Part shown: in pieces, positions 5,434-7,001 of the stretch | Layout of the letters: each line of letters opens with the position of its first letter | How positions within the stretch are numbered: the stretch's first letter is position 1 | DNA from: Candidatus Arcticimaribacter sp. | GTDB lineage: Bacteria; Bacteroidota; Bacteroidia; Flavobacteriales; Flavobacteriaceae | DNA length: 7,009 nucleotides | Assembly (NCBI GenBank): GCA_011526335.1 | Contig: WTJB01000170.1 | Coordinates: forward strand, 1 to 7,009 | Reading direction: 5' to 3' | Made by a program: the position numbers and the translations under genes | Notes under the pieces: generated by a model | Told to the model about the DNA's origin: nothing | The model's input: the letters and a program-made list of their open reading frames with translations, nothing else | Database searches by the model: none

Positions 5434-5441
5434 TATATTTG
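5434..5441 (+). promoter_or_regulatory. -7 element of the rpsU promoter
   Basis: TATATTTG matches the Bacteroidota -7 element TAnnTTTG exactly and is followed by GC. No TTG is found at the expected distance upstream (about 5410-5416), so the -33 element is weak or absent. A start site near 5447 would give a leader of about 25 bases that contains the extended Shine-Dalgarno of rpsU. It lies in the 63-base gap after the acyl-CoA dehydrogenase, where I see no convincing terminator for that gene. Confidence 0.6.
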
Positions 5442-5453
5442 CAGCCAATTCAA

Positions 5454-5465
5454 AGAAAGGAGGTG
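5454..5465 (+). promoter_or_regulatory. Extended Shine-Dalgarno of rpsU
   Basis: AGAAAGGAGGTG is a 12-base uninterrupted complement to the expected 3' tail of Bacteroidota 16S rRNA (CACCTCCTTTCT). The GGAGG core (5459-5463) ends 9 bases before the ATG at 5473, an ideal distance. No other gene in the window has such a site, as expected in a phylum whose ribosomes generally ignore Shine-Dalgarno sequences. Established knowledge from Flavobacterium johnsoniae: bS21, with bS18 and bS6, sequesters the anti-SD, and ribosomes lacking bS21 can read SD-bearing messages, so rpsU is autoregulated. The site here fits that arrangement. Confidence 0.9.
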
Positions 5466-5472
5466 CATCATT

Positions 5473-5667
5473 ATGTTAATTATACCCATTAAAGAAGGCG
5501 AAAACATCGATAGAGCGTTAAAACGTTTTAAGCGTAAATTTGATAAAACGGGAGCTATGCGTCAATTGCGTAGCCGTAAACAATTCATTAAGCCTTCTGT
5601 AAAAAACAGAACAAAAATTCAAAAAGCACAATACATTCAAAAGCTGCGTGACGCAGAAGCACAATAG
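5473..5667 (+). CDS. rpsU: Small ribosomal subunit protein bS21
   Basis: A 64-residue, highly basic protein of the 30S platform near the 3' end of 16S rRNA. The N-terminus (M-L-I-I-P-I-K-E-G-E-N-I-D-R-A-L-K-R-F-K-R-K) and the following K-T-G-A-M-R-Q-L-R-S-R motif (25-35) are typical of Bacteroidota bS21, as is the length. The start is fixed by the 12-base Shine-Dalgarno at 5454-5465. In this phylum bS21 helps bury the anti-SD tail, which makes its own SD a sensor of bS21 shortage (known in Flavobacterium, inferred here). It has its own -7 element at 5434-5441, and its transcript should end mainly at the strong hairpin at 5690-5732, so it is probably largely monocistronic. The order rpsU, xerC, hpf is common in the phylum. 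Confidence 0.97.
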   Translation: MLIIPIKEGENIDRALKRFKRKFDKTGAMRQLRSRKQFIKPSVKNRTKIQKAQYIQKLRDAEAQ

Positions 5668-5689: not shown

Positions 5690-5732
5690 AAAGTTGTCCT
5701 TAAAATGCGTAATTTTAAGGACAACTTTTTTT
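5690..5732 (+). terminator. Intrinsic terminator after rpsU
   Basis: A perfect 17-bp stem (5690-5706 with 5712-5728) encloses the 5-base loop GCGTA and runs into seven T at 5726-5732. The middle of the stem, GTTGTCC/GGACAAC, supplies the GC content. It starts 22 bases after the rpsU stop and suits the rpsU terminator. The T tract ends directly before the ATG of xerC at 5733. Any read-through transcript that serves xerC would therefore carry this hairpin against its start codon. Confidence 0.88.
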
Positions 5733-6985: not shown

Positions 6986-7001
6986 TAAATATTTACATTT
7001 G
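6970..7001 (+). promoter_or_regulatory. Strong promoter for the next operon (probably tRNAs and tuf)
   Basis: TTG at 6970-6972, 21 bases, then TACATTTG at 6994-7001 followed by C: a full match to the Bacteroidota primary promoter. It lies in the non-coding gap after hpf, and transcription would begin at about the last bases of the window. In this phylum the rpsU-xerC-hpf block is commonly followed by a tRNA cluster and tuf (EF-Tu). That the promoter serves those genes is inference from gene order; the genes themselves are outside the window. Confidence 0.72.

Follow-up and report, generated by a model that had tools for sequence, protein, structure and literature searches.

The locus described here raises the question of whether a long Shine-Dalgarno (SD) sequence in front of rpsU, the gene for ribosomal protein bS21, places this gene under the feedback control known from a cultured relative, and whether rpsU is the only gene of its genome that is marked in this way. 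The window, by which we mean the whole stretch of 7,009 nt that was analysed, is contig C217 of a draft genome of Candidatus Arcticimaribacter sp. (1.9 Mb in 343 contigs, 85% complete). In Flavobacterium johnsoniae, according to the published account, the tail of the 16S rRNA is held by bS21, bS18 and bS6, and the evidence for feedback comes from reporters, from bS21 mutation and depletion and from purified ribosomes: translation of rpsU reporters goes up when the C-terminus of bS21 is lost, when its Tyr54 is replaced (Y54A) or when bS21 is depleted, and in vitro the mutant ribosomes yield more from rpsU templates (McNutt et al. 2023, PMC9976891). The paper also reports that in about 80% of Flavobacteriales the rpsU SD is the strongest among ribosomal genes and lies below -13 kcal/mol, names rpsU as the only target of ribosomes lacking bS21 and infers that in Flavobacteriales no gene but this one is controlled by an SD (PMC9976891). 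The features discussed below are collected in Table 1; the product of rpsU scores 56.1 bits against TIGR00030, for which the cut-off is 28.95, and a search of the window against Rfam gave no family at the gathering score.

Table 1. Features of the window, the second SD sequence found elsewhere in the genome and the loci of the short message that carries it (mini-mRNA). Positions refer to the window unless a contig or locus is named.
Feature	Position	Strand	Basis or remark
Rhodanese-domain protein (3' end only), DUF2851 protein, PspC-like protein, Na:alanine symporter, in this order		+	
Helix-hairpin-helix protein, acyl-CoA dehydrogenase, rpsU, XerC/XerD-like recombinase, HPF/YfiA protein, continuing this order		+	
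TATATTTG, match to TAnnTTTG	5434..5441	+	31 nt upstream of rpsU ATG
Extended SD AGAAAGGAGGTG, 12 bp with 16S tail CACCTCCTTTCT	5454..5465	+	predicted pairing energy
rpsU, ribosomal protein bS21, 64 aa with Tyr54	5473..5667	+	TIGR00030, PF01165
Terminator-like hairpin between rpsU and xerC, 17 pairs then T run	5690..5728	+	consensus scan
Second exact SD 12-mer (L082)	C273:14270-14281	-	3 nt upstream of ATG
Mini-mRNA loci	L082 (own genome), L175-L191, L193-L201, L259-L283		

An earlier note on this DNA had described a 12-base SD in front of rpsU, complementary to the 16S tail and well spaced, and this is borne out by the predicted pairing, which consists of 12 Watson-Crick pairs with an energy of -21.3 kcal/mol and leaves the flanking base on either side unpaired; the spacer to the ATG is the 7-nt CATCATT. 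The draft's own contigs contain no 16S (0 SSU matches), and the pairing was calculated with the tail of relatives, GGAACACCTCCTTTCTAGAG. Among 26 related genomes searched for 16S, 11 gave a match and 8 a complete gene, and the tail reads GGCTGGAACACCTCCTTTCTAGAG in all 8 (14 gene copies), including that of Ca. Arcticimaribacter forsetii from the same genus, as well as in a ninth genome (G316); CCTCCTTT is present in the tail of all 9 relatives in which the tail can be read. That no other start in the window has an SD, as the note had also stated, was confirmed at the nine other start sites tested (seven genes, two of them with an alternative start), which range from +0.3 to -5.8 kcal/mol, and the next-best of the 695 ATG, GTG or TTG triplets on both strands of the window reaches -14.9 kcal/mol.

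The partners of the known circuit are also at hand, as the best solved relatives of the bS21, bS18 and bS6 of this genome are chains of the F. johnsoniae ribosome 7jil. The sequence features on which the F. johnsoniae feedback depends, as far as they were testable here, thus appear to be in place, a conclusion that the comparison supports. In a complete 30S subunit, bS21, bS18 and bS6 would keep the 16S tail in its pocket, so that most mRNAs would be read without an SD, while a subunit lacking bS21 would expose the tail and capture the rpsU mRNA through the 12-bp helix, with the result that bS21 would be replaced. By analogy, but strongly, we infer that such feedback operates in the source organism and, because it would be the circuit shown in F. 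johnsoniae, rpsU here adds an expected member to a circuit already described. On balance we consider it fairly probable that the rpsU SD raises bS21 synthesis when bS21 is short and that the second gene described below is a further client of the same ribosomes. It could be argued instead that the SD is a plain strong start signal, giving constant high expression and no feedback. This seems quite improbable, given that complete ribosomes of F. johnsoniae translate rpsU weakly and those lacking bS21 do so better, as the study reports (PMC9976891), that the source organism has kept Tyr54 and the proteins of the pocket, and that the rpsU SD is stronger than what precedes the three other ribosomal protein genes scored in this genome, none of which has an SD (rpsF +0.7, rpsR -3.4 and rplI -6.8 kcal/mol).

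The availability of related genomes allowed the comparison of rpsU leaders that the earlier note had proposed. Among the best 80 of at least 559 relatives, the SD is kept at 72 loci, with energies of -16.8 to -21.4 kcal/mol over 10-12 bp and AGGAGG placed 8-10 nt upstream of the ATG in all 72, and the remaining eight loci have nothing stronger than -3.3 kcal/mol, so that there are no intermediate values. The motif TAnnTTTG, which we take to be the -7 promoter box of Bacteroidota, is found no more than 75 nt ahead of rpsU at 79 of the 80 loci and the leader should therefore be short; in the window, the position of the match implies a leader of roughly 25 nt. At six of the eight SD-less loci (L020, L029, L031, L053, L062 and L078, the other two being L030 and L047) the box is only 17-21 nt from the ATG, which would fit a deletion of the SD. 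All 72 SD-bearing loci encode Tyr54 of bS21, as do five of the eight SD-less ones, where the exceptions have H (L020 and L031) or F (L047); a joint loss of Tyr54 and SD is suggestive only, because L020 and L031 look like near kin. We found no support for an altered 16S tail as the reason for a missing SD, the sole readable case being that of G316 (locus L030), whose tail is canonical, and candidate altered tails in G318 and G023 turned out not to be 16S; in G010 and G011, runs of N hide part of the 16S. The SD circuit of rpsU therefore appears dispensable, with eight of 80 loci SD-less and at least one such genome (G316) retaining the canonical tail.

Genes for bS21 are also carried by phages (14 viral contigs, L111-L124), and we considered whether these use the same signal; the 12 viral loci scored have at most seven contiguous pairs and at best -11.1 kcal/mol, and the idea was rejected. 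On a separate matter, two distinct rpsU loci (L001 and L023) occur in a single metagenome bin (SI072_bin182), in which two organisms were perhaps binned together.

The earlier note had further pointed to HPF, another protein that sets ribosome state and the product of the last gene in the window, and a link between rpsU control and HPF is not supported. Most relatives share the gene order rpsU-xerC-hpf (among loci of sufficient length, 75 of 76 have xerC and 60 of 68 have hpf), as might be expected if rpsU and hpf formed one ribosome-state locus under common control. Such an arrangement is nevertheless highly improbable, as no SD precedes hpf, whose start gives -2.1 kcal/mol in the window and no better than -9.4 kcal/mol in any of 68 relatives, and the terminator-like hairpin follows rpsU; the window has 10 terminator-like sites compared with a mean of 6.1 after shuffling, and this hairpin is the longest of them. 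On this evidence, HPF would be a neighbour only, outside the circuit. A second TAnnTTTG-like box (tacatttg) was seen 3' of hpf, at window positions 6987-6999, and its possible target lies beyond the window.

Genome-wide, the exact SD 12-mer occurs twice. Places that match it with up to two mismatches show no enrichment (163, compared with 170 for the reversed control). The pattern GAAAGGAGGT-N(1-9)-ATG is found at two places in this genome and at none for the reversed control. The ATG behind the second 12-mer opens a frame of 20 codons, MSYDNYLRSNRQEVPFTASF, and the SD of this gene pairs over 13 bases because the preceding T also fits the tail. A DNA search of the genus identified this mini-mRNA or a homologue in 17 of 19 genomes, its own included, and each of the 17 has the SD followed by a frame that is 20 or 26 codons long. 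Over the same 19 genomes, the pattern GAAAGGAGGT-N(1-9)-ATG occurs at 30 places (reversed control 7), and a place-by-place inspection assigned 17 to the mini-ORF, 10 to rpsU and three to other positions. The latter three (in G029, G031 and G040) are embedded in stop-free frames of 283-384 codons, whereas the frames that they open have just 17-18 codons, and we judged them to be chance and not further SD genes.

Beyond the genus, a first covariance model (R1) detected the mini-mRNA in nine of 249 genomes of the family at E < 1e-14, representing the genus and eight other genera; the other 73 of the 82 matching genomes had E > 1e-5 and were excluded from the counts, and weak matches that were inspected (L202, L203 and L205) showed only a terminator hairpin. 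Among 48 named genomes the same model found it in 24, including G322, whose copy has a mismatched base in the SD. A second model (R2), run on a drawn sample of 395 genomes of the order with stricter filters, returned only the source genome. The 17 mini-mRNA loci of the genus gave no match to Rfam 15 at the gathering score (nine weak matches, the best with 28.3 bits against 58.7), and a literature search, with many journals outside its scope, found no second extended-SD gene of Flavobacteriales in titles or abstracts. The copy in G322 (L291) looks decayed: it follows the exchanger gene introduced below, has one SD mismatch (GAAAGGAAGTG) and a damaged terminator stem, and its 21-codon ORF is still open.

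The mini-mRNA occupies a nearly constant place. Of 44 loci given (duplicates included) 43 could be placed, and in 39 of these the ATG lies 84-129 nt after the end of a match to a Na+/H+ exchanger (PF00999); another gene precedes the mini-mRNA in L176, L269 and L273, and L283 is cut off. The gene on the 3' side varies, being a 2OG-Fe(II) dioxygenase, an ABA4-like protein or neither, and in A. forsetii (G036), G039 and G316 the exchanger gene is kept with no mini-mRNA after it. The mini-mRNA is present in 21 of 40 genomes with an rpsU SD and in three of eight without one, and its presence is thus independent of the rpsU SD.

For the anatomy of the mini-mRNA we aligned 39 distinct sequences out of 43 loci given, requiring AGGAGG; left out were L270 (an N), L272 (a duplicate), L282 (an SD mismatch, so that the pattern was not found) and L283 (cut off). 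The loci come from two overlapping genome collections, from which only identical regions were removed. The mini-mRNA is about 165 nt long and consists of a 5' hairpin with a conserved GACA loop, the SD, an ORF of 19-26 codons and a terminator hairpin in which CGATGG is invariant. A TAnnTTTG box is found 58-62 nt upstream of the ATG in 35 of the 39 sequences, the copy of the source genome being without it. In all 39, the SD is predicted to form 10-16 contiguous pairs, counting G-U, with energies of -17.0 to -22.7 kcal/mol, AGGAGG stands 5-7 nt upstream of the ATG, and the ATG itself is present. Both hairpins covary, with two-sided changes at four of six pairs in the 5' hairpin and at seven of ten pairs in the terminator, and folds of three single sequences lie 3.7-4.1 standard deviations below those of their shuffles. 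Most sequences also have CCTTATCTA or a near variant, resembling the anti-SD, 3' of the stop of the mini-ORF. Its helix with the SD (nine pairs and one bulge) forms in 94.8% of cells and hardly varies, for which reason covariation speaks neither for nor against it, and a rival pairing of CCTTATCTA with the early ORF forms in 91.0% and is preferred by the consensus fold of the 39 sequences. Masking of the SD by CCTTATCTA is therefore no more than possible.

Within the mini-ORF, no sequence of the 39 has an in-frame stop in the 18 codons after the ATG, compared with 36 and 39 of the 39 in the other two frames, an observation made lighter by shared descent. Where the nucleotide alignment has gaps within the ORF, these are 3 bases long, and in the leucine, glutamine and proline columns synonymous changes exceed replacements, the remaining peptide being free to drift; the pooled pN/pS is 0.86 (0.85 within the genus). 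From this pattern, translation of the mini-ORF looks conserved, and it is doubtful whether the peptide itself has a function.

These data bear on what the message is for. The strong structure (z of -3.7 to -4.1 in the three folded sequences), the covarying hairpins with their invariant CGATGG, the weak constraint on the peptide and the position just 3' of the exchanger gene in 39 of 43 placed loci would all suit a small RNA with a regulatory role at the exchanger locus, in which the SD-like stretch would serve RNA-RNA pairing, the ORF would be incidental and the feedback would concern rpsU only. We regard this reading as unlikely, if well worth keeping in mind, as it does not account for an ATG and an AGGAGG-ATG spacing kept in every sequence, for a frame that is open where the two others are closed, or for 3-base gaps and synonymous change at leucine, glutamine and proline. 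Another suggestion is that the mini-mRNA acts as a ribosome decoy, engaging bS21-free 30S subunits in brief rounds that yield nothing of use and so damping the rpsU feedback, with no role for the peptide. An SD pairing that equals or exceeds that of rpsU (10-16 bp compared with 10-12), on a tiny ORF whose peptide drifts, would agree with this, but the three genomes that keep the mini-mRNA and whose rpsU has no SD to damp make a decoy rather improbable.

We therefore return to translation of the mini-mRNA as such. With a second gene whose SD is equally long, rpsU is not the sole candidate client of SD-reading ribosomes, and the simplest explanation is that the mini-mRNA too would be read by bS21-free subunits, because complete ribosomes of this class, studied in F. 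johnsoniae, ignore SDs; CCTTATCTA may keep the SD of the mini-mRNA covered as long as no such subunit competes for it. In its full form, the proposal is that bS21-free ribosomes have a dedicated second message beside the exchanger, with a self-masked SD of 10-16 bp that only ribosomes with a free tail would open, so that loss of bS21 would be turned into an output other than bS21; we put this forward tentatively, as an open possibility and not as a probable outcome. Both an effect of the mini-mRNA on the exchanger and its dependence on bS21-free ribosomes are things that we infer. The SD of the conserved mini-mRNA equals that of rpsU in strength, and the published restriction of SD control to rpsU in Flavobacteriales therefore looks incomplete in this clade. 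Ribosomes lacking bS21 are among the clearest cases of specialised bacterial ribosomes, and if another conserved message does respond to them through this signal, a private feedback would become a small regulon. It would also pose the question of why a locus beside a sodium/proton exchanger should be informed when a single ribosomal protein runs short.

Mini-mRNAs of the leader-peptide or type I toxin style combine a short ORF with structured RNA, possible masking of the SD and a terminator. The mini-mRNA described here would be like these in all four respects, and differs from them in matching no Rfam family at the gathering score, in encoding a polar peptide and in having a variable next gene. 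Compared with F. johnsoniae, the similarities are an rpsU with an extended SD (here 12 bp and -21.3 kcal/mol, where the circuit calls for 9-13 bp and the paper's mark is < -13; PMC9976891), a canonical 16S tail (read in relatives), Tyr54 in bS21 and matching bS18 and bS6; the differences are that the feedback is here proposed from sequence and that an extended SD occurs on a second gene of the genome. In other Bacteroidia, as the paper tells, rpsR and a few further genes for ribosomal proteins have strong SDs (PMC9976891), and what the present genome shares with them is isolated SDs in a genome otherwise devoid of these. It differs from them in that its rpsR has no SD (-3.4 kcal/mol) and in that its second SD stands on a tiny, non-ribosomal ORF.
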